This document shows, one piece after another, positions 39,193-58,781 of a stretch of DNA of 64,000 nucleotides. Location: positions 186,001-250,000 of the forward strand of contig JAQWJE010000043.1 in the NCBI GenBank assembly GCA_029248525.1, in the 5' to 3' direction. This DNA is from Candidatus Binatia bacterium. Lineage in GTDB: Bacteria > Desulfobacterota > Binatia > UBA12015. Each line of letters starts with the position of its first letter. Position 1 is the stretch's first letter. The translations under genes were made by a program, and so were the position numbers. The notes under the pieces were generated by a model that was given only the letters and a program-made list of their open reading frames with translations, was not told the DNA's origin and did not search any database.

Positions 39193-39207
39193 GCAGGAGA
39201 TATGACG

Positions 39208-42200
39208 ATGTACACGAATATTTATCGAGCTCTCGCCCTATCTTTGGCACTTCTGATTCAGGCCGCGTTTGGCGCGGATCTGCAGGCGGCCCCCCTCCCT
39301 CAGAGCAATTGGGAAAGTTACGCGGTCATCGCCGAAGAGCAGATTCTGGTCGGACCTAACCGGAACCTGAACGGAAGCTTTCTGGTCCTCGATCCCGACG
39401 GCTATTTCGACCTCGGAACCGACAGCCAGCAAGCGGGTGGGCTGGTCGCGGCCCAGACCACCCGACTCCAGAGACAGTCCTCCGTCGAAAATCTCTACAC
39501 GCAAACCTTGACCGGTTCGGGCACCATCCGAGGACAGCAGTTGTCTACAGACTTCCCGCCAACGAATGTCACCCTGCCGCCGCCGGCCACCCCCACCAGC
39601 GACTGCGTTACCGTTGCATTCGATGTCGATGTGCCACGGAACACAACAGGGGAGCCTATAAGTGGTCGTTGCTACGGCAACGTTACGGTGCGCGACGGCG
39701 CGACCCTGACGCTGCGCGCCGGCAACTATCAGATGCACAGACTCACCATCGGCAAGGGTGCGCGTCTGCAGGCCGAAGGCGCGGTCACGGTACGAGTGCG
39801 GCGGTCGGTGCGCACGCAACCTGAGGCTACGATTCGACCCGACAGCGGCAACCCGAGTGATCTGGTTTTCCAAATCGAAGCCCGGGGCAACAACAATGTG
39901 ATCGGGCGCCTTTCAAACGTCGTGGCCCGCTTCGTATCGCCGAACGACAACAACTTCCGCTTGGAACAATTCACGAATATCACGGGAACTGTTCTCGCCA
40001 ACCGCGTCTATATGGTCGGCTATCACGGTGAAGCACCGCCGACGCCGACCCCACCGACGCCGACCCCGTCCTTCTGCGGCGACGGTGTGATCCGGGGAGA
40101 TGAGACCTGCGATGACGGAGCCGATAACGGAACCGGCAACCCCGGCCCAAACGGGTTGGTCTGTCGCTCCGACTGTACTTTTTGCGGTGACGCGATTCAG
40201 CAGGATGGCGAATTCTGCGACGAGGGGCCGAGCAACGGCAGCTCCAAGAGTTGCTACGCCAACTGTCGTGCCTGCGGTGATGATATTTGTCAGACCGAAC
40301 TCGCAGTACCGTCCTACAGGAATTTCATCTGCTTCGAAACCATGCCTACCCTCACCGCGCAATCAGCCGCGCAATGTGAGACGACTCTCGACCGACGGGA
40401 GGCGGCGGGCTTGGACAACTTCGTCATCCCCGAAAGCTGCGACCTCGGAATCTTCAACGGGACGCTTACAAAAGGCCCGCTCTGTGCCGGTGCGACACCG
40501 CCGATCCCACCGGACCCGAATGGGCTTTACGAATGCAACCAATGCGTACCCGCGTCGAGCAATATTCCCTGCGCGGACGGTGGACTACCGGACCCGGCGC
40601 TGGACGAAACCTGCCGGGCAGGAGAACCCGCCGGATACTGGGATAATATCTGTCGCACCGGAGACCCGGACGTCTGCACCGTTTGTGGCGACGGGATCAT
40701 CCAGCGAGAAGCTGGCGAAGAGTGCGACGATACCGGTCCCAATTGCGGACCGGATTGCCGCCGGGTCCCGGATGAACCCGGAGTCTGTGCACCGGCCCCG
40801 GAGAACATCTTCAAAAACCGTTGGGGCCTCGAGGCGGCCCTGCTCGCCGACATCCGGAACACTGGCAGCCGGCGGGCAGCAACAGCAAACCCCGCACAGA
40901 ATGTCAGCGCCTCTGGGCAGATCTATGCCGGACCCGTCCTGAATATCGGCGGAGAGGGCCAGGTGGCTCTGGGCCCATGGTACGATGTGCGCGCCAATGA
41001 TGGCGATGCGCAGCAGGTCCTGATTCAGATCCGCAACTCCAATACCGGCGATGAAAACCTGCCGGTCTGTAATTCTTCGGACTACCAGCGCGGCACTGAC
41101 GGGACACTTTGCTATAATCCCAATGGAGGAATTCTGGCGCGGGTTCGGTTCAAAGAATCCCTGCAGGGGACTCAGGCCTTCAGCTATTCGATTATTCTCG
41201 GCTGCGGCCAGGTCTGGGCCGGAAACCTCCAGCTGGGCTCGAACGGGCTTCCAGAGCTCCGCTCCGGGTTTCCCGTGGTCGTCGAAGAAGACCTCGGTTC
41301 GTGGCGGACAGCTGACGCCTTCACCACACCCCAGGCCTTCACTCAGGCGGTCCCGGGCGATGTGAAGGATTGGCAGACCGGTTCTTTCGAGATCATCGGG
41401 GTCGAGTCCCTTTCCTGCGACCCGGAAGACCAGCTCGCTCGGCTCGAGGGCAACCGTTGGGCCAAGCCCGACGGATTCTTGCGCGAAGCTGCCACCAATC
41501 ACCTTTCCGCTCAGGTCTTTCTCGTGCGTGTCGGTGCCGGGGTTTCCCATGCCTACCGAACTCCGGCGATCGCTCGATTTGCCGCTCGCGGACTGGGGCC
41601 GATTCTCGTCGAAGGCGGGATTCTGAGCAACCTGGAGGCTCCCACTCTTGCCGATTGCCTTACCTTCCGCACCGATGGCGAAAGGTTGCTGACGCCGACC
41701 CAATGCGTCGCCGCGGTAAACTTGGCGCTGACGTCAGCTCAGCTGTCGGCTCAATTCGACATCAGCCCTCTGGTCGGTGGAGAGACGCGCATTATTGCTT
41801 CCTTGCCGACACTCAATTTGAATTGTGCCGAAGGTGCCCCCTACGGCCCCGGACCTTTCAGTTGCAACCCGAACGGGGAGAAGATGCGCTGCACCGTAGC
41901 CGATCGAGAGGGGAATACACGAGCCGCAACTCTGGCGGCGTCCGGACTCACGACCGTGGATGGGGGTTGTCGACTCACACGCGCTACCACCGAGATCGCC
42001 ATGCGCGCCGAGGTCTCGCGTAGTGAGGTCAGCGAGCCGCCGGCTGACATTTCCCTGTGGACCGACCGCTTGCCGCGGCCGCTCTCCGGTACCGTAAAGA
42101 TGTACTTCGACCGCAACCTCGCGGGCGAACTTCTGCATGGCGAAACTCTGCCGGATGGACTCCTGAACGTATTTGGTCGTCCCGCCACAGGCTACGAGGG

Positions 42201-42315
42201 TCTTCCCGTAATCAGCCTGACGGTTCAGGAGTACCGGAATGGGCGAATTGGCGGGACCTACGGAAATACCACCCCGACGGGATCCTTCGATAAAGTACTC
42301 TATCCGGGCAACTGA
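39208..42315 (+). CDS. Giant exported multidomain protein with Cys-rich repeats and paralogous C-terminal domain
   Basis: 1035 residues from ATG 39208, which lies 8 nt after AGGAG; ATG 39202 is closer to the site (2 nt) and less likely. Signal peptide IYRALALSLALLIQAAFGADL. Residues ~30-270 are beta-rich, with a right-handed-helix-like part (CYGNVTVRDGATLTLRAG, MHRLTIGKGARLQAEGAV). A PTPTPPTPTP linker leads to DUF4215-like Cys-rich repeats (CGDGVIRGDETCDDGADNG, CGDAIQQDGEFCDEG, CGDGIIQREAGEECDD). From about 532 the chain repeats the domain of the preceding gene (GQVALGPWYDVR, YNPNGGILARVRF, GCGQVWAGNL, GGTYGNTTPTGS). Probably a cell-surface or secreted adhesin-like protein. A long palindromic hairpin follows the stop. 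Confidence 0.78.
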   Translation: MYTNIYRALALSLALLIQAAFGADLQAAPLPQSNWESYAVIAEEQILVGPNRNLNGSFLVLDPDGYFDLGTDSQQAGGLVAAQTTRLQRQSSVENLYTQTLTGSGTIRGQQLSTDFPPTNVTLPPPATPTSDCVTVAFDVDVPRNTTGEPISGRCYGNVTVRDGATLTLRAGNYQMHRLTIGKGARLQAEGAVTVRVRRSVRTQPEATIRPDSGNPSDLVFQIEARGNNNVIGRLSNVVARFVSPNDNNFRLEQFTNITGTVLANRVYMVGYHGEAPPTPTPPTPTPSFCGDGVIRGDETCDDGADNGTGNPGPNGLVCRSDCTFCGDAIQQDGEFCDEGPSNGSSKSCYANCRACGDDICQTELAVPSYRNFICFETMPTLTAQSAAQCETTLDRREAAGLDNFVIPESCDLGIFNGTLTKGPLCAGATPPIPPDPNGLYECNQCVPASSNIPCADGGLPDPALDETCRAGEPAGYWDNICRTGDPDVCTVCGDGIIQREAGEECDDTGPNCGPDCRRVPDEPGVCAPAPENIFKNRWGLEAALLADIRNTGSRRAATANPAQNVSASGQIYAGPVLNIGGEGQVALGPWYDVRANDGDAQQVLIQIRNSNTGDENLPVCNSSDYQRGTDGTLCYNPNGGILARVRFKESLQGTQAFSYSIILGCGQVWAGNLQLGSNGLPELRSGFPVVVEEDLGSWRTADAFTTPQAFTQAVPGDVKDWQTGSFEIIGVESLSCDPEDQLARLEGNRWAKPDGFLREAATNHLSAQVFLVRVGAGVSHAYRTPAIARFAARGLGPILVEGGILSNLEAPTLADCLTFRTDGERLLTPTQCVAAVNLALTSAQLSAQFDISPLVGGETRIIASLPTLNLNCAEGAPYGPGPFSCNPNGEKMRCTVADREGNTRAATLAASGLTTVDGGCRLTRATTEIAMRAEVSRSEVSEPPADISLWTDRLPRPLSGTVKMYFDRNLAGELLHGETLPDGLLNVFGRPATGYEGLPVISLTVQEYRNGRIGGTYGNTTPTGSFDKVLYPGN

Positions 42316-45123: not shown

Positions 45124-47505
45124 TTACGAGAGAGGCTCCGCAACAGCCTCGAGAACGATCTCGGAGACCGTGTCCGCCTCGATATCGTCGGCGCAAAAGG
45201 GCATATCGACCCATTCTTTTGCCGAGTAGACACGCGTCATATCCGCAAAATGCGGGGACGCGGGATTGGTCGACTGCGAGTAGGTCAGAACGCTCGAGGC
45301 ATCGGGACAGCGACTGTCATCCCAGGTCACTACCTGAATATAGCTGTTGCCGTGACGGATATAGCCGCGCCCCTGGTCGCCGACGTAGCGAGACGAAATC
45401 ACGCTGAACATCGAAGCACCTGATCCGCCGGAGATCGGGATACGATCCCCATCGACCTCCTTGTACTGCACCTCGCCCCAAGAACGATTCATGGGCAGTC
45501 CACGCACAATCAATTCATCGACTGCTTCGCCCAAAGCACGCTTCACGCCTTCCACAACATCGAGATTGCTTCGGTTGAGTTCGCGAGGCGTATGAACCGG
45601 ATCTGTCACATCAAAGGGCACCGCCCACACATCCGCAACATCGGTCAACCTCCCCCAGAACTCTTCCCAGATATGAGGTCCCGTGCTGTCGCTATTATAG
45701 CGGGTATCCCATAGCGACAGAACCTCGCAGGCCTCGGCCGCCTGAGCCGGCGCATTGCTGTACGCTGGCCAGTCGTCGACTCCGGAGCAGATCTCGATGA
45801 CGTCATCGAGCACGAGATCGGCCCCGATATTCCGATTAAGGTAGAGCATCTGTTCGAGCAACTCGCGGTCAAAGCCTGGCAGGCCCAATCCATCGGTCCC
45901 CGCAATCCGCTCTTCAGCCTGCATGAACGTCAACCGGGTGCGGAAGGACTGCGCCACGTCTTCCCGCCCGATGACCGGAGAGTAGTCCGTCAAAAGCTGC
46001 GCGGGGTTGGAGAGCCAATAGCTGTCATTCGCATTGGCAACATAGGTCGTGTTCTGAAGAGCCGGTAATTGATCGGCAGCAAAGAGCCCTTCCCGAACTC
46101 CCGGGGAAACGCCCCATTCACAAGCAGAGCGTGATCCGTCGAGAGAGGGGAACCCTTGCGATGTCAGCAACTCCGTCAGCGGCGTCTTTCCGCATTCATC
46201 GAGCTTGGCTACGGAGATATTCGGAATCGCGCCGACATCGCCGTAAAGGGCCTGACCATCTCGATCGGCCGCGATCGTATTCACCCAGGGCACACCCAGC
46301 AGCTCAAGCGCTTCCAGCAGTTCCGCGATGCTATGAGACTGGCCGATCGCCAGCCACTGCGGAAGGGCCGCGGTGTTTTCCAGATTGGCATCCCGAAGAG
46401 CCAGGAGCGTACCAAACGCCGTTGGCCAACCCGCCACGACCGGGCTCAGCACACCCAAATCCACAATCGGGCCGACGTGGCTCATATAGATCGTTTTGGT
46501 GCGTTCCTCCACGCTACCGTCCTCGAGACGGACCTCCACGGTGACGGGGTGCGAGGTGATCTCGCGAACCTCATCGTCATACTGGTAGCGCATGGGATCG
46601 GTGGGGAGGATCCTCAGTTCCACGAAGGCGAATCGACGCGCCGTGGAGACGGTATGCGTCCATGCGAGATCCTCATTGAAACCGATGTTCACCAAAGGGA
46701 CGCCAAACAACGATGCACCCGCAACATTGTAGACGCCGGGAATTTCCAGATGAACATTATAAAACCGCTGTGGACCGTTCCACGGGAAATGAGGATTTCC
46801 GAACAGAAGTCCCTTGCCCGACCGGGAAGCGTCTCTTCCGATGGCATACGCATTGCTGCCGAATTCGCTCGGCGGTATAAACCCGAGATCCTCAGCCTGA
46901 AAGGCAAAGCTCTGGGCCTCGACACGAGGGGCGGCCGCCAGCGATTCGGGCGGTGCAGCCGAGGTGACCGCACGAATCAAAGGATCCATCGACCCCCGCA
47001 AAATCAGCTTGCGGTAGACCTTGGCCAGATCCATCGGCGTCACCTCGCGCACGTAGGCAGCCTCTCGACAGCCGGTCTCACCTTCAGGCAATCCCTCGGC
47101 GCCGGTCTCGCGCAAATAGCGATTCATACCTGCCGCATAACCGACCACCAGATCGTCGAGATCCCGTGGTGCCGCCGCCATGAATTCGTTTTCGATATAT
47201 TCGTCGTTGTTGAAAAAGCTGTAGACTACATCGGCGTCGAAGTTGCCCTCGTCTCCCAGAAAAAGTGCGGAGCGACCGTTGGCACGGACGACTTCCTTCA
47301 TCAATTCGCAATAATTATCCTGCGAGAACGCGTAGCCATAGCCGTAGCCGAGCCCTTTGAAGTTGTCTGCCTTGATATGAGGGATGCCGAAGCTCGTGCG
47401 CACAATTTCCGCGCGCATCGGGGGTTCGTCCGAATTACTGCCGGAACAGCCCGCAAGGACCGTTACCACCGCCCCCAACCACAACAATCCGCTTAGATTT
47501 CTCAT
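45124..47505 (-). CDS. Penicillin acylase/AHL acylase family lipoprotein
   Basis: 793 residues, Ntn-hydrolase. Lipobox VLAGC in the signal SGLLWLGAVVTVLAGC. Alpha-chain region FGIPHIKADNFKGLGYGYGY and AFSQDNYCELMKEVVRANGR; the beta-chain starts at the nucleophile Ser217 in EFGSNAYAIGRDASRSGKG, followed by GNPHFPWNGPQRFYNVHL. Autocleavage would release a linker before Ser217. Family members deacylate beta-lactams, aculeacin or N-acyl-homoserine lactones; the GSNAYAIG start and GNPHFPW fit the acyl-homoserine-lactone/aculeacin acylase side. A lipoprotein form is less common than the soluble periplasmic form. Divergent from the giant protein cluster across a 206-bp gap. Confidence 0.9.
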   Translation of the reverse strand: MRNLSGLLWLGAVVTVLAGCSGSNSDEPPMRAEIVRTSFGIPHIKADNFKGLGYGYGYAFSQDNYCELMKEVVRANGRSALFLGDEGNFDADVVYSFFNNDEYIENEFMAAAPRDLDDLVVGYAAGMNRYLRETGAEGLPEGETGCREAAYVREVTPMDLAKVYRKLILRGSMDPLIRAVTSAAPPESLAAAPRVEAQSFAFQAEDLGFIPPSEFGSNAYAIGRDASRSGKGLLFGNPHFPWNGPQRFYNVHLEIPGVYNVAGASLFGVPLVNIGFNEDLAWTHTVSTARRFAFVELRILPTDPMRYQYDDEVREITSHPVTVEVRLEDGSVEERTKTIYMSHVGPIVDLGVLSPVVAGWPTAFGTLLALRDANLENTAALPQWLAIGQSHSIAELLEALELLGVPWVNTIAADRDGQALYGDVGAIPNISVAKLDECGKTPLTELLTSQGFPSLDGSRSACEWGVSPGVREGLFAADQLPALQNTTYVANANDSYWLSNPAQLLTDYSPVIGREDVAQSFRTRLTFMQAEERIAGTDGLGLPGFDRELLEQMLYLNRNIGADLVLDDVIEICSGVDDWPAYSNAPAQAAEACEVLSLWDTRYNSDSTGPHIWEEFWGRLTDVADVWAVPFDVTDPVHTPRELNRSNLDVVEGVKRALGEAVDELIVRGLPMNRSWGEVQYKEVDGDRIPISGGSGASMFSVISSRYVGDQGRGYIRHGNSYIQVVTWDDSRCPDASSVLTYSQSTNPASPHFADMTRVYSAKEWVDMPFCADDIEADTVSEIVLEAVAEPLS

Positions 47506-47711
47506 CGACAACCTTTCTTCCGTCAGAACCTTGCCCGACAGTTATCCTGCACCTGACTTCCCTTCCTATGTCCGGACGGACCGGAATACAATCCCGTATA
47601 TAGCGCGAGAGACCCCCGTAGATCCGAAAAGCATCGATAATCCAAGCACTTTTGTCGCTCGCGCGGCCGGCAGCGCCGAGGTATGGTCCTGAGGCTTGGT
47701 AAATTCCCGTG

Positions 47712-50700
47712 ATGAAAGAATATAACCCAAACGTTCGACGGATCGATCTACGGTCTTGCCTCGTGGCCGCGGCGCTCTCACTGTCGCTGCTGATCGCCCC
47801 AGATGCTCTCGCCATTGATGTAGATATCAAATGCCGACGGGACCTCGGCAAAGGCTACCGCAAGCTGGCCGTCACCGCTTTCAAGTACCAGGCCAAATGT
47901 CACGAAGACACCATAAGAGGGCGCGACACCCCGGCTGATTGTCGGGATCTCGAGAGCACTGATGTCGCAGCGCTGAAGTCCGTTCGCAAGGCAGAGGAGA
48001 AGCTCGCCAAACTTGCTGCAAAAAGTTGTGCGCAAAGCGAAAGCCCCTTCGCCTCCGGCTTGGGATACTGCCCGGCACCCTGCGGCGACCGACCGAATGA
48101 GAGCTTTGCCGGTGTAGTGAGTTGCATGAGTTGTCTCGCCAAGGCCCGCGCTACAAGCGCGGCCGACGCCGCCTACCCGTCACCTCAGTTCAACCCGGAA
48201 AAAGATGATCTGCGCTGTGCCGCGAGCGTCGGGAAGGCAACTCGCATTCTTCTTGACCGACGCCAGAAGGTCCAGCAACGCTGCCGCTTCCTCGCGGATC
48301 GGACAAGCATCGAAGAGTCCTGCAAGGAGTTCAACAGCTTTGCCGATCCTCGCGACGAAGTCGCCAGGGCCGAGCTCAAACTGCAGGATGCGGCACTCGC
48401 ATGTGCGGCGGAAAGCCCTGCTCGGTTGGGGCTTTGCGCAGCCGATCCCGCCGCTCTCGGCGAATGTCTCACGACAACCATGGACGAAATCGGCGAGGAT
48501 ACCTTCAATGATTTGTACCCCGAACCTTTCCTGAGCCTGCAATCCCCCACTCAGGGAGCGTTCTTCCAGGGCACCTCGATCGAGGCTCACGGTCAATTCG
48601 GGGGGGCAGCGCCCGAAAGATATTCCGTCTACGTCAACAACGAAGTTGCCGCGACCACCAGCACGGGGGGCTTCTCCCACAGCGTGCAGGCCGGCTCGGG
48701 AGTTCTGCAGCCTCTGGTGATTGAGCTGCGCCATACCAGCTCGCAGAACGTCCTGCTTCGTCAACGCCGAACTCTTCACCAAACCTCGGGGATCCCGCTG
48801 GGCTCTACCGAGGCTGCCGGCCTCTCCTTCCGCCTGTCTGATCGAGGGCTCGATCGTCTGGAACCGTCGCTCGCCTCCATGGTCGAGATCGACCTACCCT
48901 CACTTCTCCCACCCGGCACTCTGGTCATCGACGACTTCGAATACCTTTGCGTGATCGGATGTCTCACCACGGACGTCACCATCAACCCCTCCAACGGCAG
49001 CAATGCACCACCGCCCGCAGTGGCCGGGTTCCGACTGGGTGCCGACGCACGCGGCGCCGGTGTGGGCTACGTGGAGGCCGAAATCGTCCTGCAAGCTGTG
49101 TCGTTGAGCGCCCGCGTTGTCGAACTTGGCTGTGACATCAACGTCACCTCGGACGCCGCCGTTCTTCGCGGCAACTTCGACCTCTGGTGGGCCCCCGCCG
49201 ATCGCACCAGAATCGACGTCACACAGCTCGGAGGCATCGACGTCAGCTTCGCCGGCTTCAGCGCCGACACCGATTGCGGCGACGGCTTTGGCAGCGGACT
49301 GCTCGAGAGCCTTGTCGGAAATTTCCTCGGCGATGTGGAGTCGCTTGTGCGCGACGGATTCACCGGATTCCTCGACAATCAATCTCCAGGCGATGACGAT
49401 ACGCCCATTGCTTCGGCAATCGAAATTGCTCTCGCCGGCTTCGCCATTCAGGGCGTACTGGGCGACAGCCTCGGCGTCGGCATCAGCGCGCCAATCGCCG
49501 ATATCCCGATCGACGACGAGGGCATCACCATTCGCAATGACCTGACTCTGGCCGCGAATGTGGGCGGCGGAAGCGGTCAATGCACGCCGCCTGCAGGATC
49601 CGCGGAACCGCTGGGTGTCGTCGTCGCCGCCGGCGACTTGCCGATCTTTGCTGCGGGAACGCCCGTTGCGGGTCGCGCTTACGATGTCGCACTCTCACTC
49701 TCGCGAACCGTCCTGAACCAACTGCTGGCCGAAGAGACCCGATGCGGTCTGCTGGTAAGCAACATCGAGGCTCTGGCCGGTGCCCCGATCACCACCGACC
49801 TGCTGGCGCTCGTCTTTCCCGAAATCGCTACCATCTGGCCCGATACGAGACCCGTCCGCGTCGAGGTTCGTCCCGGACTGGCGCCCTTTCTCACAACCCA
49901 GACAGGTCCGGCCGGCGAGGTCGCCGAGCTAAGGATCGGCCATCTCCAGCTTCGTTTTATCGTCGAGGACGCCGGAGGAGATCTGCAAATCCTGAATGTT
50001 CTCGTCGATCTCCGCACGGGCATTGAAGTGGGCTTCGATAATATTCTCGGCCTTCTCGAGTTTGTACTGGGACCGCTGGCAGCCAATGAGATCGACGTTC
50101 TCGTTCTGGAAAACCCGCTGGAGCTCAACGAAGCGCTCGTGTCCGTGACCCTGCAGCAATTGCTCCCCGCCGCCCTCCCGAACATCAGCTCGACGTTGGG
50201 CAGCTTCCCGATTCCCGAGATTCTCGGGAAGACATTCTATGGACTCGAAGCCTCCGCCCTCGGCGGCAGTCTGGGGGTCTTTGCCGACCTGCTGCCCGCC
50301 GGAACGATCGTGCAACGCGACTTCACGGGAGCCGATTTTCAGACAGCCGATTTTGTCCTCAACGGCAACGCAGTCTGGGTTGAAGACCCCGCACCTTTTT
50401 TCCAGCCGCAACCGAGACGACTACGCCTCACCAGCAACCAGACAAACCAACAGGGTTCAGCCTGGTACGCCGGCACACAAATCGATGCGAGCCAGAACTG
50501 GAAGGCCTTCTATCAGTTCCAGCTCTCTTATCAGGGAGCCGAAGGCGCCGATGGGCTCGGGTTTCATCTGCAATCCGATGGTCTCGACGCGAACCCGGCC
50601 GAGAATGGAACCGGACTTGCCGGCCCGCGGATTTCCGTCGTGGTTGACACCTACAACAACGGGCCGCAAGGAACCGAGGAATCGCTTTATGTTCTGGTCA

Positions 50701-51680
50701 ACGGTGCCGTCCTGTACTTCAACAACCTCCTCGATTTCCCATCGGATCCGAGGCCCGGGTCCTTTCCTCGAGTTTTCCGGATGGAGTTGGAGTACTGGGC
50801 TGCCGCTCAGGAATTAAGGATTGCGCTTTTCGACGAGGGCTCGAACGCTTTTCTCGATGAACGCGTAAGCATCGACCTGCGCAACCTGGGACCATCCCAT
50901 GCGGGCTTCTCGGCGCGTACCGGCAACGCGACGCAGAACCATGACGTGCGTTCCTTTCTCCTCGCCGGGACGGTGCCGGTCCTCGATCTCGCGCCCGGAC
51001 AGTTACGCCGTGCGCGAGATTTCACCGGCGGCGATTTCGAGACCGCCAGCATGGCCCTCGTTGGCGATGCGTTCTGGACCGAAGACGGGGCTCCAATCTT
51101 CTCGCCCTATCCGCGACGACTGCGCCTGACGAACAATGGCTCGGGTCGCAATGGCTCGGCCTGGGATGCGGAGAGTCGCTGGGATGCCTCCGCAAGTTGG
51201 AGCTCGATCAGCCGTTTCCAGATCACCTTTGGCGGTCCCGATGGGGCCGATGGACTTGGTTTCCATCTGCAAACCAACGGCACGACGATCAACCCGAACC
51301 ACCATGGGTTTGGTCTCGGCGGACGCCGACTCTCCGTCGTCATCGACACCTGGAACAACGACGATGGGGCCGACGAATCTCTGCAGGTGTGGCTTTCGGG
51401 CAATCGAATCTACTCGAATAACCTTCAGGATCTGGCCAGCGACCCCCGCCCCGGCTCGAGCCCGCAAGTCTTTCGGCTCGAAGTTCGCCACGTGGCGCCC
51501 TTGAACCAATTGCAGATCCGACTGATTGACGAGTCCGGCGGTGGCTATCTCGAAGAGACCATCGGTCTGAACCTCGATGGCTGGGGGGCCTCCTGGGCCG
51601 GATTCTCGGCCACCACAGGGACAGCTGCGGAGAATCATGATATCCGAACTTGGGAGTTTACCGGAGTACCCATGCCATGA
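47712..51680 (+). CDS. Giant exported protein: Cys-paired helical modules, central beta region, two lectin-like domains
   Basis: 1322 residues. Signal peptide SCLVAAALSLSLLIAPDALA. Residues ~38-265 hold two Cys-paired helical modules (KCRRDLGKGYRKLAVTAFKY ... CRFLADRTSIEESC). An Ig-like segment follows (LSLQSPTQGAFFQGTSIEAH). The long central part (about 370-865) is unassigned and rich in Leu/Ile/Asp (LPSLLPPGTLVIDDFEYLC). From ~870 come two tandem ConA/L-type lectin-like domains, each with DFTGxDFxTAxxxLxG, RRLRLTxN, GADGLGFHLQ, DTxNN and AGFSAxTG. ATG 47712 preferred over GTG 47709. The next gene overlaps the stop (ATGA), so it is translationally coupled. The role is probably glycan binding at the cell surface or in the medium. 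Confidence 0.78.
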   Translation: MKEYNPNVRRIDLRSCLVAAALSLSLLIAPDALAIDVDIKCRRDLGKGYRKLAVTAFKYQAKCHEDTIRGRDTPADCRDLESTDVAALKSVRKAEEKLAKLAAKSCAQSESPFASGLGYCPAPCGDRPNESFAGVVSCMSCLAKARATSAADAAYPSPQFNPEKDDLRCAASVGKATRILLDRRQKVQQRCRFLADRTSIEESCKEFNSFADPRDEVARAELKLQDAALACAAESPARLGLCAADPAALGECLTTTMDEIGEDTFNDLYPEPFLSLQSPTQGAFFQGTSIEAHGQFGGAAPERYSVYVNNEVAATTSTGGFSHSVQAGSGVLQPLVIELRHTSSQNVLLRQRRTLHQTSGIPLGSTEAAGLSFRLSDRGLDRLEPSLASMVEIDLPSLLPPGTLVIDDFEYLCVIGCLTTDVTINPSNGSNAPPPAVAGFRLGADARGAGVGYVEAEIVLQAVSLSARVVELGCDINVTSDAAVLRGNFDLWWAPADRTRIDVTQLGGIDVSFAGFSADTDCGDGFGSGLLESLVGNFLGDVESLVRDGFTGFLDNQSPGDDDTPIASAIEIALAGFAIQGVLGDSLGVGISAPIADIPIDDEGITIRNDLTLAANVGGGSGQCTPPAGSAEPLGVVVAAGDLPIFAAGTPVAGRAYDVALSLSRTVLNQLLAEETRCGLLVSNIEALAGAPITTDLLALVFPEIATIWPDTRPVRVEVRPGLAPFLTTQTGPAGEVAELRIGHLQLRFIVEDAGGDLQILNVLVDLRTGIEVGFDNILGLLEFVLGPLAANEIDVLVLENPLELNEALVSVTLQQLLPAALPNISSTLGSFPIPEILGKTFYGLEASALGGSLGVFADLLPAGTIVQRDFTGADFQTADFVLNGNAVWVEDPAPFFQPQPRRLRLTSNQTNQQGSAWYAGTQIDASQNWKAFYQFQLSYQGAEGADGLGFHLQSDGLDANPAENGTGLAGPRISVVVDTYNNGPQGTEESLYVLVNGAVLYFNNLLDFPSDPRPGSFPRVFRMELEYWAAAQELRIALFDEGSNAFLDERVSIDLRNLGPSHAGFSARTGNATQNHDVRSFLLAGTVPVLDLAPGQLRRARDFTGGDFETASMALVGDAFWTEDGAPIFSPYPRRLRLTNNGSGRNGSAWDAESRWDASASWSSISRFQITFGGPDGADGLGFHLQTNGTTINPNHHGFGLGGRRLSVVIDTWNNDDGADESLQVWLSGNRIYSNNLQDLASDPRPGSSPQVFRLEVRHVAPLNQLQIRLIDESGGGYLEETIGLNLDGWGASWAGFSATTGTAAENHDIRTWEFTGVPMP

Positions 51681-54472
51681 ACCTGAACGACAACAAGCGC
51701 AACAGCGCTCACCTCTGCGGCCTTCTTTTGGTCATCCTCAGTTTGGCGGCTCCCGCGGAGGCCATCACCGATGTTTCCATCGCCGCCCGGAAACTCGTGA
51801 TCCGGGACAAGTCGGCGATCGGTGCCAAATCAAGCGTAGTTTTCGTCGCGCGCGACAAGGAAGGCCTGGTCGAGGTTGGGACCGGCACCGATCCCGGTTC
51901 CGTGGAAGCAGAGCTGCAGGTATTCTACCCGGACGGGCAACCCGTCGCTCAGTTCCGCGTCCCCGTGGGCTCGGCACCCGGAGTCCGTGGCTGGCGGAAG
52001 CTGACCGGCGGATTTTCCTTCACCAACAAGGCGACGGACCCCGAATCGCTCGACACGCTCACGACTGTCAAATCGCTGCTCGCTCGGTCGGGGAAGGTAT
52101 TGAAGGTCGTGGCGCGCAGCGCCGGCGATCTCGACAGCAATCTCCGCGCACTTGGAGCTCCCACAGGTCCGGTCGACACTGTTCTGACCATACGTAATGC
52201 AGGCGAAGAGGTCCGCCATTGCTCGCGCTTCGAATCGTGTCGATTCAAGTCTTCCGGTGGCGGTCTGCTGGCCAATCTGGTCTGCAAGAATGCCGCGCCA
52301 GGGCCATGCCCAAGCAGCGCGTCGCGGACACGGATCGAAAAAGCCCGCGAGCCACTCCACCTCTACGTCGTTCGCACAAGCGAACTGACCTCAGGCGAGC
52401 AGGTCATGGTCGCGGGGCTCCAAGGTCTTGTGGCCAGAACCAGCCCCGCGCAAATCTATCTTGACCCTGGTGCCGGCGGCTATCGCACCTGGCTGGAAGA
52501 TCTCGCCGCAACTCGCGGCGTCACTTACGAGGAGGTCTCGGACGCGTGGTGGCTTGTGGACCGATTCCGCGACCTGTTGCGCGGACACCTTGTTTGGCAA
52601 GCTGGCGATCACTCGATCAGTGTGGCCAACTCTCTGGCCGGTATCGAAAACGCCTTATTGGTGGATGCTTCCATGGAAGGGCGCGCGCTGGCGCGCGGCC
52701 TCGAGCGGATCGCCGACCTGCGCAGCATGAACGAAGGGTTGATCCTTGATAACTACGCAAGCCGGCTGAACCCGGTTGTCGCCTTTGAGCAACGCGAAGA
52801 ATTCACCCAACAGCTACGCGACTACGCCGTGCTCTCTCGCGCCATGGTCTTCTTCGACGGCAACTCGGAGTTTCGCAACAACCTTGTGGAAACGTTGGCC
52901 CCCGATGCCGCAATCTACGGCTGGGGAGACGCGAGTATTGGCGAAGATGTCTTCGTGGGCGCGAGCTCCGACCGAGGGGCGTTCACCATCGCCGCTGACC
53001 ATGCCCATAATATCGCACCTCTCAGCGGGATCCCGGCACACCAACAAACCCAACCAAACCAACCCGCTGCCAGCGCATCCCCCGGCAAACACTACGCTTC
53101 CTTCCTCATGACCGATGGCGATAATATCCAATGGCTGCTCGGCACCTTCGCCACCGACGCGCGCTGGTACGGTAGTCCGCTCCGCGGGAGTTTCGATATG
53201 GGCTACGGAATGGCACCTGCCCTCGCCGAACTCGCTCCCTCGGTTCTGCATTGGTACTACGCGAACGCGGCCACCGGCAGCGGCGAGGACTATTTTGTCG
53301 TCGGCCCTTCCGGGGGCGGCTATCTCTACCCGAGCCGCTATCCCACCGCAGCGCTGGACACCCATATCGAGCGTCTGGCGGGATGGATGTCCCTGGCGGA
53401 CCTCAGCCTGATCCAGATTCTCGACGCCGAAGCCAGAGAGCGACTCGATCTTTGGGATCGCTTTACCGCACGAGAGGAGATCGAGGGTCTCTTCTATCTG
53501 GAATACGCAGACTATGCGGATGGTCGTGGCCGGGTGAACTGGTCCAATGGAAAGCCCATCATTGCACCGCGCGGCAAGCTGTGGACCGGCCTTGCCAACT
53601 CGGATGCCGCCTCGATCATTTCCCTGCTGAACAATGCTCGCCGCGACTCGAGCAGCGTAGCCGGCTACAGCCTGATCAATGTCGCGGCCTGGGATCAGTC
53701 CTTTGGTCTGGTCCAGAGCGTCGTGGCGAGCCTCTCACCCGACGTCGAAATCGTGACACCCGGTGAATTGGTCCAACTGATGCAGGATAACGTTCCCCAT
53801 CAGATCGCCTTTCACCATGATTTTACCGGTGCCTCTTTTGAAACCTCCGATCTCACACTGGTCGGATCCACCTTCTGGGTTCGCGACGAGGACGCTCTCT
53901 TCCAGCCCAACCCGCAACGGCTGCGCCTGACCAACAATGGCGGTGGTCAGGTGGGTTCGGCCTGGTTGTCCCAGCCCATCGATGCTTCAGAAAGCTGGTC
54001 GACAGCCTTCCGGCTGCAGATCAGCCATCTGGTCAACGGCGGCGCCGATGGAATGTCTTTCTACCTGCAACCAGATGGGCTGGCCGCGAACCCGGGCATC
54101 CGCGGTTCCTTTACCGGGTCGGCACTGACCGTCGCCGTCGACACCTGGGATAATGGCGAAGGTACCAGCGAATCCCTCGAAGTTCTGCTCGGGGACAACC
54201 GAATCTTCTTCAACGACCTGCTTGACTTCACCGCTGACCCGACGCCTGGCTCCACCGGTCATGTATATCGGCTGGAACTGGACTACCTGAGCGCACTGCG
54301 TCAACTGCGAATCCGCCTGATCGACGAAGGCAGCGCCGCGGCACTGGAGAACTGGGTGGAGGTGGACCTCGCGAGTTTCGGTTCCATGTACGCCGGTTTT
54401 TCTGCCCAGACGGGGGGATCCGCGCAGAATCACGACCTGCGGACCTGGACTCTCTCCGCAGCCGCACCCTAG
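51677..54472 (+). CDS. GxGYxYP putative glycoside hydrolase fused to a lectin-like domain
   Basis: 931 residues. Signal peptide HLCGLLLVILSLAAPAEA. Residues ~20-180 are a beta-rich N-domain (ITDVSIAARKLVIRDKSAIG). From ~230 (REPLHLYVVRTSELTSGEQV, MVAGLQGLVARTSPAQIYLD) comes the N-part of the GxGYxYP family, then FLMTDGDNIQWLLGTFAT, GSFDMGYGMAPALAEL and the signature GPSGGGYLYPSRYP. The C-terminal 220 residues are the same lectin-like domain found twice in the preceding protein (DFTGASFETSDLTLVG, GADGMSFYLQPDG, AGFSAQTGGSAQNHD). GxGYxYP proteins are predicted glycoside hydrolases with no proven substrate that I know. Start ATG 51677 overlaps the upstream stop codon. Confidence 0.85.
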   Translation: MNLNDNKRNSAHLCGLLLVILSLAAPAEAITDVSIAARKLVIRDKSAIGAKSSVVFVARDKEGLVEVGTGTDPGSVEAELQVFYPDGQPVAQFRVPVGSAPGVRGWRKLTGGFSFTNKATDPESLDTLTTVKSLLARSGKVLKVVARSAGDLDSNLRALGAPTGPVDTVLTIRNAGEEVRHCSRFESCRFKSSGGGLLANLVCKNAAPGPCPSSASRTRIEKAREPLHLYVVRTSELTSGEQVMVAGLQGLVARTSPAQIYLDPGAGGYRTWLEDLAATRGVTYEEVSDAWWLVDRFRDLLRGHLVWQAGDHSISVANSLAGIENALLVDASMEGRALARGLERIADLRSMNEGLILDNYASRLNPVVAFEQREEFTQQLRDYAVLSRAMVFFDGNSEFRNNLVETLAPDAAIYGWGDASIGEDVFVGASSDRGAFTIAADHAHNIAPLSGIPAHQQTQPNQPAASASPGKHYASFLMTDGDNIQWLLGTFATDARWYGSPLRGSFDMGYGMAPALAELAPSVLHWYYANAATGSGEDYFVVGPSGGGYLYPSRYPTAALDTHIERLAGWMSLADLSLIQILDAEARERLDLWDRFTAREEIEGLFYLEYADYADGRGRVNWSNGKPIIAPRGKLWTGLANSDAASIISLLNNARRDSSSVAGYSLINVAAWDQSFGLVQSVVASLSPDVEIVTPGELVQLMQDNVPHQIAFHHDFTGASFETSDLTLVGSTFWVRDEDALFQPNPQRLRLTNNGGGQVGSAWLSQPIDASESWSTAFRLQISHLVNGGADGMSFYLQPDGLAANPGIRGSFTGSALTVAVDTWDNGEGTSESLEVLLGDNRIFFNDLLDFTADPTPGSTGHVYRLELDYLSALRQLRIRLIDEGSAAALENWVEVDLASFGSMYAGFSAQTGGSAQNHDLRTWTLSAAAP

Positions 54473-54599
54473 CGCGGCGCGTCACGGCCGGGCGGTGCTC
54501 GGGGCAATTTCCACAATTGGGACACGATTATATTGACCTGCGACCTCCCGGGGCGATATGACCAGAAACGTCCCGCACAGCCCACAGGAGTCGCACCCG

Positions 54600-57500
54600 A
54601 TGAAAACCTGCCCCGTTCGTTTATCAAGCTGTTTCGCTCGCCTGCAATTCGGCCTCGCTTTGCTCCTTCTGGCCACCGCGCAACTCGCGACGCCACTGGA
54701 GTCACGCGCAGGCAGTTTCGCCTCCAGCTGGAACTCGGGGAGCGGCTCACGAGCAACATTGAGTGGAAATGCCGAGGCCGTCAGCGCCAAGATCGTCCTG
54801 ACGAGCAACTCGGGATCTGAATATGGCCGGGTTGTGATCGATGACCTCGATCCGGGCCGAGCGGTAGATTCCTTCCACGGATGCACCACTCTATTTATCG
54901 GTTCTGGTCCTTCGGGAGCCGATGGCTTCTCGTTCAACTTCGGGGACCCCAACAGCATTGTCAGCGACCCGGAAGGCGTGACCAATGGTCTCGCAGTCTC
55001 GCTTGACACTTATGATAACGGCAGCGGTGATGTCGCGGGTAAAATCGCGGCCTACTACGACGGCAGCTTGGTCGTCGAGGGCCCCTCCAAGAATTTGCGC
55101 ACCGGAAACTTTGTTTCGCTATGCGTGGTGGTGCGCTCGAACGGCGAAATTAAAATCTGGCACGATGGCGCCGGTATTGTCGGCATCATCGGCTCGTGGA
55201 CGCCGGTTGCCGGGAGGCGCTTCATCCTCGCCGCCTCCACGGGTGGTCTCGCCGACGAACATACCATCGAGGATACCTCGATCGTCACCCACGTCGTCGG
55301 GGCCCCCCCCGAGCAATTCAATTCGACCGCGCCTCAATCCGGTTGGAGTTACTTCGGTAATGCCCGACAAGACGATTTTTACCTCCGACTGACCGATAAC
55401 GCGGGCAGCCAACAAGGCTCGGCAATCCTGGAAGATCAGAACCCAGGGCAGGCCATCGACAGCTTTGCCGCCTATTTTACCAAATATGCATGGAATGGCG
55501 GCGGTGCTGACGGGATCGGCTTTCGCTTCGGAGACCTCAGTGACGCGAGTTTCAACCAAAATGTCGGCCCCAGCGGCCTGACGATCGTCTGGTCGACCTA
55601 CAACAACGATCGGATCCGGGCGTACTACGACGGGAACCTGATCGCCGAGTCCAGTCCCCGACAGCTTCGAGGACAGTGGACATATGCGCAGGTCGCGGTC
55701 GATCGCAACGGGCAGCTCGTCGTCGCCGATACCGCCGACAACACGGCCGGGGCCCTGATCGAAGTGCAGATACCCGGCTGGGCACCGCAGGCTGGCTGGC
55801 GCTTCGGTTTCGGCGGAAGCACCGGAGGCATCAGCGACGATCAGGCCATCGCACAGATCTCGATCCAGACCGGCAGCTGCGGCGACGGACTGCTCGATAT
55901 CGGCGAGCAATGTGACGACTCCGGCAATTCCTGCTGCTCCGCTACCTGCGGATTCGAATCGACAGAAGCGACTTGCGGCGGGAGCGGCACAGAATGCACC
56001 CTTCAGGACACCTGTGACGGTGCCGGCAGTTGCGTCGACAATGGGCATGAGGTTGTCGGAGCCAACTGCGGGGACGCCGGCGACGAGTGCACCATTCAGG
56101 ACTCCTGCGACGGCAGCGGAACCTGCATCGACAATGGCTACCAAAACGTGGGCACGAACTGCGGCGATGACGGCAGCGAGTGTGTGATTCAGGATACCTG
56201 CGACGGCACGGGCTCCTGCACCGACAACGGAGTCGCCTCCCCGGGGACGGCCTGCGGTGTCGGCGGCAGCGAATGCATCCTTCAGGATACCTGCGACGCT
56301 TCGGGAATTTGTATCACCAACGGTTTCGAGGCCTCGGGGACTTCATGCGGAGATGCCTCGGATACCCAGTGCGACAACCCGGACACCTGTGACGGCAGCG
56401 GAACCTGCCAAGTTAATAACGCGGACACCGCAACCGCCTGCGGTGACCCCGGCAGCGCCTGCGTGATTCAGGACACCTGCAACGGCGCGGGCGGCTGCGC
56501 CGACAACGGCTATGTCTCGGGCGGCACCGCGTGTGGAGACCCCAGCGACACGGAATGTACGAATCCCGACACCTGCGATGGTCTCGGAACCTGTCAGGAT
56601 CGACATGCACTTGTGGGCGCCAGCTGCGGCGACGCCGGCACAGAATGTACGTTCCAGGATACCTGCGACAGTTCGGGAAGCTGCACCGATGGCGGGCATG
56701 CAATTATCGGAACCGCCTGCGGCGACAATGCTGACACCGAGTGCACGGATGCCGACACCTGCAACGGCTCCGGCAGCTGCGAGGCTAACCACGCTCCGCC
56801 TGCGACCAGTTGTGGCGACAGCGCAGACAACGAATGCACAGATCCTGACACCTGCAACGGCTCCGGCAGCTGCGAGGCTAACCACGCTCTGGCTACGACC
56901 AGTTGTGGCGACAGCGCGGATGACGAGTGCACCGATCCTGATACCTGCGACGGGTCCGGTAGTTGCGAGGACAACCACGCCGCGGCCGCTACCAGTTGTG
57001 GCGACAGCGCCGATGACGAATGTACCGATCCGGACACCTGCGACGGGGCCGGTAGCTGCGAAGACAACCACGCCGCGGCCGCTACCAGTTGTGGCGACAG
57101 CGCCGACAACGAGTGCACCGATCCCGACACCTGCGACGGCTCCGGTAGTTGCGAGGAGAATCACGCAGCGGCCGCCACCAGTTGTGGCGACAGCGCCGAC
57201 GACGAGTGCACCGATCCCGATACCTGCGACGGCTCCGGTAGTTGCGAGGCAAACCACGCGGCGGCCGCCACCAGTTGTGGCGATAGCGCCGACGATGAAT
57301 GTACCGACCCGGACACCTGCGACGGCTCCGGTAGTTGTGAAGCAAACCACGCAGCTGCAGCGACCAGTTGTGGGGAGGCCGCCGGAGATTGCGATCTTGC
57401 CGACACCTGTGACGGCTCTGGCGCCTGTGCGGATAATGGCTTCGCGACGGCCGGGAGCAGCTGCGGGAACTCTGCGGACACTGCCTGCAGCAATCCCGAT

Positions 57501-58781
57501 ACCTGTGATGATAGCGGCAATTGCGAAGCGAACCACGAGTCGGACGGAACGACTTGCCGAGGACCCAGTGGTAGCTGCGATGCGACTGAGGTTTGCGCTG
57601 GCGGCGCCTGCCCTGCCGACGAGGACCTGCCCGACGCGACGGCATGCGACGACGCAAATCCATTGACCAGCGGCGAGAGCTGTGACGTCGGTATTTGCTC
57701 ATGCGCTCCGGGCGCCTGTGATTTCAACTGCGGCGACGGACTCCAGGATGCAACGGAAGAATGCGATGACGGCGGCAATATCGACGGCGACGGCTGTTCG
57801 GCGGTTTGCACAAATGAAGCCGGTTGCGGCAATGGGGTGACCGACAGCGGCGAGACCTGCGATGATGGCGACACCAACAACGGGGATGGCTGCTCCAGTC
57901 GCTGTCAGATCGAAGCCACGCAGTCCAAAGACCAGCAGAAATGCATCAATATCGTCAACGGATTGACAGTCAAGATCGCTCAGGCGCAGGGCAAGGAAAA
58001 TTTGATCTGCATAAAGAATGGTGGACGCGGAAAACTTCCCGAGAACCAGACCATCACTGCATGCCTGACCGCGGATGTGAAAGGAAAGGTCGCGAAAGCA
58101 GCCAATAAGCTCAAGGTGGCTCAAGAAGGAGAGATCGACGATCCTTCCAAGACCAAATGCCCCGAAGAACCCAACTTCGCCTACGTGGATGACGCCACCA
58201 TTTCCACCGAAGTTACGGCGTCAGCCCGGGATTTCCTCAGCGATATCCTGGGGCCTGATGCTGATGCCACGGCGGTCGACTTGACCGACAAGACCCTGAA
58301 GAAGGCCGGCGTCTGTCAGCAGACCCTGATCAAAACAGCCGACAAAGTGCTGCTTTTCCAGATGAAGGAATTCACAGCCTGCAAAAAAGCGCAGCTGAAA
58401 TCTTCCGAGAATCCGATTATCTCCGCCGAATCGCTGGAAGGCTGCTTCGCTGATGTTGCGGCGGATGCAAAGGGCAAAGTCGAGAAAGCGCGTCTCAAGA
58501 TCGTCGATCTCTTCGGGAAAAAATGTACTCCCTTCACCGTCGGGCTGACGGATGTTCTGGACGGCCCATGTGCTCAAAATGCTGTCGATATCGATGGCTT
58601 CTCGAGCTGTGTGGTCGCGACCGGGCGATGTCGCACCTGCCAGATCTTCAACGCTGCTGACAATCTGGAGTATGATTGCGACACCTTCGACGACGGCTCG
58701 AGCAATAACAGCTGCATCGCTTCCGTTGCGGGATCACCGTCGGGTGCATTTCTCGATGGAGTGCACGCGATTCACTTCTAA
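54600..58781 (+). CDS. Giant exported protein: two ConA-like domains, 17 Cys-rich repeats, DUF4215 repeats, Cys-paired helical modules
   Basis: 1393 residues from ATG 54600 (AGGAG 9 nt upstream); ATG 54558 would add 14 residues with no signal-like sequence. Signal peptide RLQFGLALLLLATAQLATPL. Residues ~38-235 and ~245-430 are two ConA-like lectin domains (GADGFSFNFGDPNS, LDTYDNGSGD; GADGIGFRFGD, STYNND). About 458-985: 17 repeats of CGDxxDxECxxxDTCxGxGxC. DUF4215 repeats CGDGLQDATEECDDGGN and CGNGVTDSGETCDDGDTNNG follow near 1042-1108. The C-terminal ~280 residues carry Cys-paired helical modules (QKCINIVNGLTVKIAQAQGK; GVCQQTLIKTADKVLLFQMK). Likely a long, disulfide-rich, extracellular glycan-binding stalk protein. 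A hairpin follows at 58795-58825. Confidence 0.8.
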   Translation: MKTCPVRLSSCFARLQFGLALLLLATAQLATPLESRAGSFASSWNSGSGSRATLSGNAEAVSAKIVLTSNSGSEYGRVVIDDLDPGRAVDSFHGCTTLFIGSGPSGADGFSFNFGDPNSIVSDPEGVTNGLAVSLDTYDNGSGDVAGKIAAYYDGSLVVEGPSKNLRTGNFVSLCVVVRSNGEIKIWHDGAGIVGIIGSWTPVAGRRFILAASTGGLADEHTIEDTSIVTHVVGAPPEQFNSTAPQSGWSYFGNARQDDFYLRLTDNAGSQQGSAILEDQNPGQAIDSFAAYFTKYAWNGGGADGIGFRFGDLSDASFNQNVGPSGLTIVWSTYNNDRIRAYYDGNLIAESSPRQLRGQWTYAQVAVDRNGQLVVADTADNTAGALIEVQIPGWAPQAGWRFGFGGSTGGISDDQAIAQISIQTGSCGDGLLDIGEQCDDSGNSCCSATCGFESTEATCGGSGTECTLQDTCDGAGSCVDNGHEVVGANCGDAGDECTIQDSCDGSGTCIDNGYQNVGTNCGDDGSECVIQDTCDGTGSCTDNGVASPGTACGVGGSECILQDTCDASGICITNGFEASGTSCGDASDTQCDNPDTCDGSGTCQVNNADTATACGDPGSACVIQDTCNGAGGCADNGYVSGGTACGDPSDTECTNPDTCDGLGTCQDRHALVGASCGDAGTECTFQDTCDSSGSCTDGGHAIIGTACGDNADTECTDADTCNGSGSCEANHAPPATSCGDSADNECTDPDTCNGSGSCEANHALATTSCGDSADDECTDPDTCDGSGSCEDNHAAAATSCGDSADDECTDPDTCDGAGSCEDNHAAAATSCGDSADNECTDPDTCDGSGSCEENHAAAATSCGDSADDECTDPDTCDGSGSCEANHAAAATSCGDSADDECTDPDTCDGSGSCEANHAAAATSCGEAAGDCDLADTCDGSGACADNGFATAGSSCGNSADTACSNPDTCDDSGNCEANHESDGTTCRGPSGSCDATEVCAGGACPADEDLPDATACDDANPLTSGESCDVGICSCAPGACDFNCGDGLQDATEECDDGGNIDGDGCSAVCTNEAGCGNGVTDSGETCDDGDTNNGDGCSSRCQIEATQSKDQQKCINIVNGLTVKIAQAQGKENLICIKNGGRGKLPENQTITACLTADVKGKVAKAANKLKVAQEGEIDDPSKTKCPEEPNFAYVDDATISTEVTASARDFLSDILGPDADATAVDLTDKTLKKAGVCQQTLIKTADKVLLFQMKEFTACKKAQLKSSENPIISAESLEGCFADVAADAKGKVEKARLKIVDLFGKKCTPFTVGLTDVLDGPCAQNAVDIDGFSSCVVATGRCRTCQIFNAADNLEYDCDTFDDGSSNNSCIASVAGSPSGAFLDGVHAIHF
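55974..57554 (+). repeat. Cys-rich coding repeat array (17 units of 30-31 codons)
   Basis: Seventeen tandem units of consensus C-G-D-x-x-D-x-E-C-T-x-x-D-T-C-D-G-S-G-S-C-x-x-N encode six cysteines per unit with fixed spacing. Two subtypes are visible: 30-residue units with ECxxQDTC near the start (units 1-4, 6, 8) and 31-residue units with ECTDPDTC in the middle. Unit 16 (GDCDLADTC) departs from both, unit 17 is diverged, and two degenerate copies follow. Confidence 0.9.
56805..57362 (+). repeat. Perfectly periodic 93-bp tandem repeats (6 units)
   Basis: Units begin with ACCAGTTGTGGCGA at 56805, 56898, 56991, 57084, 57177 and 57270, exactly 93 bp apart, with a seventh, diverging unit from 57363. 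The near-identity at DNA level, compared with the diverged flanking units, points to recent amplification or gene conversion. The period is in frame (31 codons), so copy-number changes keep the gene open. Confidence 0.9.

Follow-up and report, generated by a model that had tools for sequence, protein, structure and literature searches.

Do three giant genes that follow one another on the forward strand of a Candidatus Binatia bacterium genome encode a single surface system, and on what would their products act? We analysed a window of 64,000 nucleotides (positions 186,001 to 250,000 of contig JAQWJE010000043.1, in the 4.27-Mb assembly GCA_029248525.1), and all positions given without a contig or locus name are those of this window. 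A sequence-only reading had proposed the genes as a candidate glycan-binding and glycan-processing system with lectin-like domains in all three products. It had not mentioned two parts of protein 1, a Cys-rich N-terminal region and a region of ~590 residues, the latter being predicted here to fold as a BPI/LBP/CETP-like module, which is followed by two L-type lectins. Gene 1 overlaps gene 2, whose product joins a GxGYxYP putative glycoside hydrolase to one lectin of the same family. We tentatively propose, with a confidence somewhat below even, that proteins 1 and 2, secreted or exposed at the surface, capture and trim a glycan-bearing lipid, a scheme to which protein 3 need not belong. The genes, as called from open reading frames (ORFs), were arranged as follows.

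47712-51680, + strand: gene 1, 1322 aa (amino acids); signal-like N-terminus, Cys-rich region, immunoglobulin (Ig)-like domain, BPI-like TULIP module of two domains, a pair of L-type lectins
51677-51680, + strand: ATGA overlap of the gene 1 stop and the gene 2 start
51677-54472, + strand: gene 2, 931 aa; signal-like N-terminus, N2 domain, GxGYxYP putative glycoside hydrolase, one L-type lectin
54600-58781, + strand: gene 3, 1393 aa; signal-like N-terminus followed by a pair of divergent L-type lectin-like domains, 17 Cys-rich repeats, a DUF4215-like segment and a helical Cys-rich module

The N-terminus of each protein is hydrophobic and signal-like (15-residue means of up to 2.33, 2.44 and 1.86 for proteins 1, 2 and 3), in agreement with the earlier description of three consecutive giant exported-looking proteins, and for proteins 1 and 2 we infer export from these N-termini. 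The top internal 19-residue hydrophobic windows reached 1.72, 1.16 and 1.18, respectively, and the peak in protein 1 fell within the BPI-like module. The ATGA overlap of genes 1 and 2 was seen as described, and a gap of 127 bases separates gene 2 from gene 3, for which another possible ATG lies at 54558.

Protein 1 Carries a Predicted BPI-like Module

47820-48524, + strand: Cys-rich N-terminal region, protein 1 residues 37-271 (from the protein sequence; helical by eye only; single-sequence matches in related genomes)
48531-48788, + strand: Ig-like domain, model residues 1-86 (from the model; Glucodextran_B-like in relatives; 1ug9 at Z 10.8, root-mean-square deviation (rmsd) 1.9 over 76)
48810-50297, + strand: BPI/LBP/CETP-like pseudodimeric TULIP module, model residues 94-589 (predicted model and fold search)

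Residues 274-862 of protein 1 were folded from an alignment of 19 copies, the window's own and 18 taken from named genome records. The predicted model (pLDDT 83.4, pTM 0.79) comprised the Ig-like domain and a full two-domain BPI/LBP/CETP-type TULIP barrel, with both barrels in one chain and in the BPI topology. The top five Foldseek matches were BPI twice (1ewf and 1bp1), LBP twice and CETP, with E-values from 1.6e-20 to 2.5e-16, the best being human BPI 1ewf (E 1.6e-20, TM-scores 0.50/0.62). VIA-align against 1ewf gave Z 18.7 and an rmsd of 5.9 over 426 aligned residues (model residues 95-589), and the next unrelated rows were single Ig-type domains at Z 10.8 or lower. P47/OrfX proteins ranked after BPI/LBP/CETP in the Foldseek search (E ~1e-9); an assignment of the module to this group was set aside because these matches stood far below those of BPI/LBP/CETP.

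Several observations weigh against the BPI-like assignment. The TM-scores to BPI were just 0.50/0.62, and the full-length rmsd was 5.9-7.2 Å. At the sequence level, residues 274-862 alone matched no Pfam family, the window's own module had no Pfam BPI match, and a Pfam scan of 19 aligned members gave no BPI match at E ≤ 1. When profile A1 was searched against the sequences of solved structures, it found no BPI, merely two chance CheY matches. Neither PF01273 nor PF02886 was over the cut-off in any of the 14 family genomes, where PF01273 gave a single match, off the module. PF02886, the C-terminal BPI family, matched 2/16 aligned members (best E 0.0043, sub-threshold) and gave four matches at E ≤ 10 in the family genomes, all sub-threshold; the best three (E 0.0027-0.014) mapped to C-terminal halves of the BPI-like module, none of them in the window's genome, and the same loose search was also positive in 2 of 14 control genomes. 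Because the sequence support is weak and partial, the assignment rests on structure prediction, on which it is strong. If the fold is as predicted, the barrel may bind lipid in a hydrophobic tube.

Such a protein might also be turned against other organisms, as an antibacterial or predatory agent: a secreted BPI-like barrel, guided by lectins, would then bind the lipopolysaccharide (LPS) or lipid A of other bacteria, as vertebrate BPI does. The nearest solved folds include BPI and LBP, which bind LPS according to excerpts of PMC5507252, and protein 1 has a signal-like N-terminus with no lipobox by eye. However, the ligand is not implied by the fold, given that CETP, which shares it, moves neutral lipids. 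CETP transfers lipids between lipoproteins (excerpts of PMC5507252). In addition, relatives from Myxococcales and Acidimicrobiales (L116, L118) have a lipoprotein-like N-terminus by eye, which suggests an own-surface role there. We regard antibacterial use as highly improbable.

Distribution of the Module among Relatives

Some part of protein 1 was matched in 12 of the 14 family genomes. A scan of named genomes gave 19 loci with the module, of which the titles name Deltaproteobacteria (seven), Candidatus Binatia (one), "bacterium" (one), Myxococcales (one), Proteobacteria (one), Acidimicrobiales (four) and Actinomycetota (four). Within the window's class, the module occurred in 30/148 genomes and 16/72 genera (E ≤ 1e-20). 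In a phylum sample of 297 genomes, eight matched at E ≤ 1e-5; four of them did so over most of the profile, all within the class, and the other four, which covered profile positions up to 77-166 only and mainly the Ig-like part, were not counted as BPI-like.

Within the class, the module often formed the end of a protein whose start is the Cys-rich helical module, namely at 8/19 named loci and in 11 of 18 stretches taken by place (note that the two sets overlap). Protein 1 is unlike its class relatives in having two lectins at its end. An analogous fusion was seen at L117:3496-6753, where the BPI-like module is followed by two C-terminal Laminin_G_3 domains, which are concanavalin A (ConA)-like. 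In Acidimicrobiales (L122:830-8031), a lipoprotein-like BPI-like gene comes directly after genes of the PhoD-type phosphatase and GH2 beta-galactosidase types, all on one strand; in high-GC relatives, raw ORF calling left most of the surroundings of BPI-like genes unreadable. The window's own genome (G000:C13) holds a second BPI-like module at L089:9758-11485, and a stand-alone Cys-rich helical protein shortly upstream of it (L089:6769-7794) shares 47% identity with the C-terminus of protein 3.

L-type Lectins of Proteins 1 and 2

50310-50981, + strand: L-type lectin, first copy of protein 1 (Pfam, alignment, PDB matches)
51000-51677, + strand: L-type lectin, second copy of protein 1 (Pfam, alignment, PDB matches)
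53786-54469, + strand: L-type lectin of protein 2, from the lectin family seen in protein 1 (Pfam, alignment, PDB matches)

Both proteins carry the signature of the L-type lectin family. The two lectin stretches of protein 1 were over the cut-off for PF00139 (44.5 bits) and PF03388 (39.9 bits) and scored 77.4 against a cut-off of 78.3 for PF18483; the lectin of protein 2 was over the cut-off for PF00139 (39.3) and PF03388 (25.6) and below it for PF18483 (55.2). The lectins of the two proteins were 46-48% identical, and the domain noticed earlier twice in protein 1 and once in protein 2 can be called an L-type lectin. A profile of five lectin copies matched 14 distinct solved sequences (E 9.9e-10 to 8e-4, over ~155-195 profile positions), including the bacterial legume lectin 7elv (E 9.9e-10), ERGIC-53 (1.1e-8), VIP36 and plant lectins, and the concern that the shared domain might prove unrelated to lectins was not borne out. 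The ADG and DTxxN positions were invariant in all five copies and aligned with ERGIC-53; we take them to be the sugar-contacting Asp and the metal-binding Asp/Asn.

This lectin family was found in 3/148 class genomes (E ≤ 1e-8, a threshold too strict for the distant lectins of protein 3), solely in the protein 1 and enzyme types. The window's genome has three copies, a pair in protein 1 and a single one in protein 2, and the enzymes of two other genomes have one each. A small tree, in which the protein 3 lectins served as the outgroup, placed the window's protein 1 and protein 2 lectins together (96/99), apart from the enzyme lectins of the other genomes, and showed the two copies of protein 1 as sisters (88/91), on long branches. 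Since the window's lectins group together, the tree suggests that the neighbouring protein 2 was the source of the lectins of protein 1 in this lineage.

The Putative Hydrolase of Protein 2

51764-52318, + strand: N2, the N-terminal domain of protein 2 (several family genomes have it within or next to BPI-like genes)
52358-53782, + strand: GxGYxYP putative glycoside hydrolase (Pfam; 3sgg at E 1.1e-65)

The GxGYxYP domain that had been noticed in protein 2 proved complete, with the N and C domains together and all four models (N, 2nd, 3rd and C: PF16216, PF20957, PF20958 and PF14323) over the cut-off (E 1.9e-57 for C). Protein 2 aligned with BT2193 (PDB 3sgg, E 1.1e-65), so that its E423, D480, D482 and N483 correspond to Glu272, Asp331, Asp333 and Asn334 of BT2193, under an assumed constant chain/protein offset of 21 taken from the SDGDN segment. 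These are the putative catalytic and neighbouring residues of BT2193 (excerpts of PMC4071793), and all three members of the putative triad Glu272/Asp331/Asp333 are kept in protein 2, whose version of the GxGYxYP motif is GGGYLYP. Two other family genomes, G002 and G003, encode an enzyme of 57% identity that likewise has a C-terminal lectin of this kind; N2 was present in the G003 enzyme, and the G002 contig begins inside the enzyme gene. Because two Pfam lectin families were over the cut-off, solved lectins were matched and the enzyme has its putative acids, glycan binding by proteins 1 and 2 is supported at the level of sequence. To this extent the earlier reading is partly supported, for the first two proteins; the lectins of protein 3 fall below the cut-off.

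The same features could reflect plain polysaccharide scavenging, in which the lectins and the GxGYxYP enzyme would bind and cut an external polysaccharide and the barrel would have an unrelated job. Excerpts of PMC4071793 describe GxGYxYP proteins with lectin-type domains, including the ConA-like Laminin_G_3, within polysaccharide utilisation loci, and the putative triad of protein 2 is intact. However, both lectins of the BPI-like protein belong to the family of the enzyme's lectin, and the gene of that protein overlaps that of the enzyme. Furthermore, a scan of 15 neighbouring ORFs found one MFS transporter, at a distance of 20 kb, and no family of the SusC/D type. Scavenging is, in our judgement, a doubtful explanation of the locus.

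Possible Link between Genes 1 and 2 and Proposed Mechanism

The ATGA overlap, the rare lectin common to both and the proximity of N2 to BPI-like modules partly support a link between genes 1 and 2. Specifically, of the 15 N2 matches in other family genomes, 8, on five contigs, lay no more than 2.1 kb from a BPI-like module, where 0.07 would be expected if the matches were scattered; the 15 exclude the window's copy and three matches outside the family.

Other findings count against joint action. The eight co-located N2 matches, being on five contigs, are not independent, so that the tail probability computed from them is not reliable as it stands, and none of the three matches outside the family lay near a BPI-like module (169 kb or more away, or on another contig). 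Genes 1 and 2 were seen together in no other genome, and the three-gene block was not found elsewhere among the 148 class genomes searched. In G003, the gene upstream of the enzyme encodes a Cys-rich protein, and B-lectin giants contain the C-terminal domain of this protein as well. Moreover, the activity of GxGYxYP proteins, even of BT2193, is just a predicted one in excerpts of PMC4071793. In both G002 and G003, the lectin was found solely in the enzyme, and the enzyme contigs, of 4.2 and 5.0 kb, have one readable neighbour each, a different gene; the ORF after the enzyme in G002 is on the opposite strand and is SulP-like by eye. A same-species contig (G007:C534, 4418 bases) ends inside gene 1 and is uninformative on the block. 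The claim that the three genes form one system was therefore not supported by synteny, as homologues of the three were never together elsewhere, as far as the searched genomes show. Because the lectin was found in 3/148 class genomes, the block looks lineage-specific.

From the domains, the predicted barrel fold, the conserved putative catalytic acids and the gene overlap, all of which are computed, we infer secretion, lipid binding, sugar binding, a common substrate and joint action for proteins 1 and 2. The lectins would bring both proteins to a common glycan. Those of protein 1 would dock on the sugar part while the barrel would shield or extract the acyl part, and protein 2, through its lectin of the same family, would carry the GxGYxYP hydrolase to that glycan and trim it. 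It is possible, if unlikely, that the two form a glycolipid-handling pair, a BPI/LBP-type barrel with two L-type lectins and a coupled GxGYxYP enzyme with a same-family lectin, that acts on a lipid-linked glycan. If true, the pair would be a bacterial counterpart of the vertebrate LPS-binding proteins, with its own sugar recognition and an attached enzyme. The lectin common to proteins 1 and 2 offers a route to the substrate of GxGYxYP enzymes, since it can be screened on glycan arrays.

Protein 3

54711-55919, + strand: pair of divergent L-type lectin-like domains in protein 3 (Pfam below cut-off; alignment)
56013-57524, + strand: 17 Cys-rich repeats of ~31 residues each (motif count)
57705-57917, + strand: DUF4215-like segment (sub-threshold, E 0.0087)
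57918-58778, + strand: Cys-rich module, predicted all-helical (many relatives have a module of its family ahead of the BPI-like module within one polypeptide)

The lectin-like domains had been read as common to all three proteins, which stood for proteins 1 and 2 but not for the distant, below-cut-off copies of protein 3. Its two PF18483 stretches (E 2.5e-8, 34.5 bits) were below that cut-off, as they were below every lectin cut-off. Because their match to the lectins of proteins 1 and 2 covers just 80-85 residues at 33-38% identity, they are relatives of those lectins and another domain, and the same lectin domain in all three genes was ruled out.

The 17 Cys-rich repeats reported earlier were confirmed by one motif; a looser motif gave 19, of which two lie downstream of the array, and the DNA of the array has a 93-base period with 6.8 copies. 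A match to DUF4215 (PF13948), for which a profile search had been suggested, was present but sub-threshold, at 16.8 bits against a cut-off of 27. The C-terminal module, described earlier as helical with paired Cys, is Cys-rich and all-helical by prediction; it had no Pfam match, and a fold search of the PDB gave nothing at E ≤ 0.001. A Cys-helical module common to proteins 1 and 3 was suspected and is not claimed, as there was no sequence match between them.

Protein 3 had 28 matches in the window's own genome, counting itself, and was matched somewhere in 14/14 family genomes. The recurring parts in the family genomes were stretches like its Cys-rich repeats or its Cys-rich helical module. 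Relatives of protein 3 in G009 and G012 (51% and 45%) adjoin B_lectin giants, away from BPI-like genes. Such recurrence, together with the other neighbours of these relatives and a block that was not found outside the species, would fit mosaic surface proteins, in which module shuffling among exported proteins made neighbours of genes that have no common pathway. The L-type lectin, however, is no common module, being found in 3/148 class genomes and in two protein types, and genes 1 and 2 overlap; we consider such a mosaic origin distinctly unlikely for the locus. If proteins 1 and 2 do handle a glycan-bearing lipid, protein 3 is probably dispensable to the pair. It may be a surface scaffold, and as a Cys-rich, lectin-bearing scaffold or receptor it would not necessarily work in the same pathway.

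Two secreted-looking giants that each adjoin a protein 3 relative (L107:2155-5886 and L108:3414-7301) are 50% identical and have four and two B_lectin stretches, respectively. The L107 giant has a sub-threshold PI-PLC-X match, and the L108 giant has a near-threshold C-type lectin match.

Neighbouring Genes and Other Features of the Window

An acylase of the penicillin-amidase family (45124-47511, E 7.1e-130) is divergent from gene 1, and a same-species contig (L105) has an ORF with the same length and start at the same place. Two adjacent exported-looking proteins (37573-39192 and 39202-42315) have, by eye, a long C-terminal region in common, and neither had a Pfam match at E ≤ 0.001. The window had no Rfam match at the gathering threshold and no tRNA, and the single match of an NCBIfam scan was judged to be due to chance. 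Counts of promoter- and terminator-like sites differed from those in shuffled sequences by less than two standard deviations.

Comparison with Known Systems

Two-barrel BPI-like proteins are best known from animals. Protein 1 resembles vertebrate BPI, LBP and CETP in its predicted fold across nearly the whole length, with both barrels, and in its signal-like N-terminus. It is unlike them in being bacterial, at 12-14% identity and with no Pfam BPI family over the cut-off, and in having its module preceded by the Ig-like domain and the Cys-rich region and followed by two lectins. The bacterial relatives that we found in print are either solved yet distant (P47/OrfX, YceB) or fold predictions (DUF4403 and an AlphaFold DB cluster). 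In that clustering, according to excerpts of PMC10584675, bacterial structures group with human BPI (A0A2D5ZNG0, TM-score 0.81), and a figure legend common to three examples names Deltaproteobacteria and Actinomycetia. The cluster is like protein 1 in joining bacterial proteins to a BPI-like predicted fold and may be the family of its module; it differs in being a fold match, with lectin fusion, gene context and family distribution not mentioned in those excerpts.

DUF4403 (PF14356) is described in excerpts of PMC6791001 as a predicted full-length BPI-like pseudodimer from bacteria, and is like the module of protein 1 in having two predicted TULIP domains. Identity of the module with DUF4403 was rejected, as no PF14356 match at E ≤ 1 was found among 16 and 19 members. 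An hhalign comparison with four DUF4403 sequences gave a probability of 0.5%, with no profile similarity. PF14356 was not found in the window's genome, and the 4/198 phylum genomes that were positive included none from the class. P47/OrfX, a solved bacterial TULIP protein, aligns to both parts of the module (6ekt, Z 9.7 over 349 residues), but as a much weaker fold match than BPI/LBP/CETP.

As for the lectins, those of proteins 1 and 2 are like ERGIC-53, VIP36, legume lectins and 7elv in matching the solved sequences and in keeping ADG and DTxxN, and unlike them in being, in tandem or singly, fused to a predicted lipid-binding barrel or an enzyme. In searches of the open-licence PubMed Central literature, no description of a lectin-fused BPI-like protein was found, nor anything on Binatia together with lectin; UBA12015 appears there in a paper on salterns. 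Protein 2 is like BT2193 of the GxGYxYP family in its four domains, its aligned acids and Asn and its GGGYLYP motif. It is unlike that family in its C-terminal L-type lectin, as against the CBM6, CBM32, Ricin-type or Laminin_G_3 domains named in excerpts of PMC4071793, in its N-terminal N2 domain and in the BPI-like gene that its own gene adjoins. Bacterial BPI-like folds are thus already in print; for one bacterial family of this kind, the locus adds a distribution, a domain context and a hypothesis on the ligand that can be tested, namely a glycan-bearing lipid.

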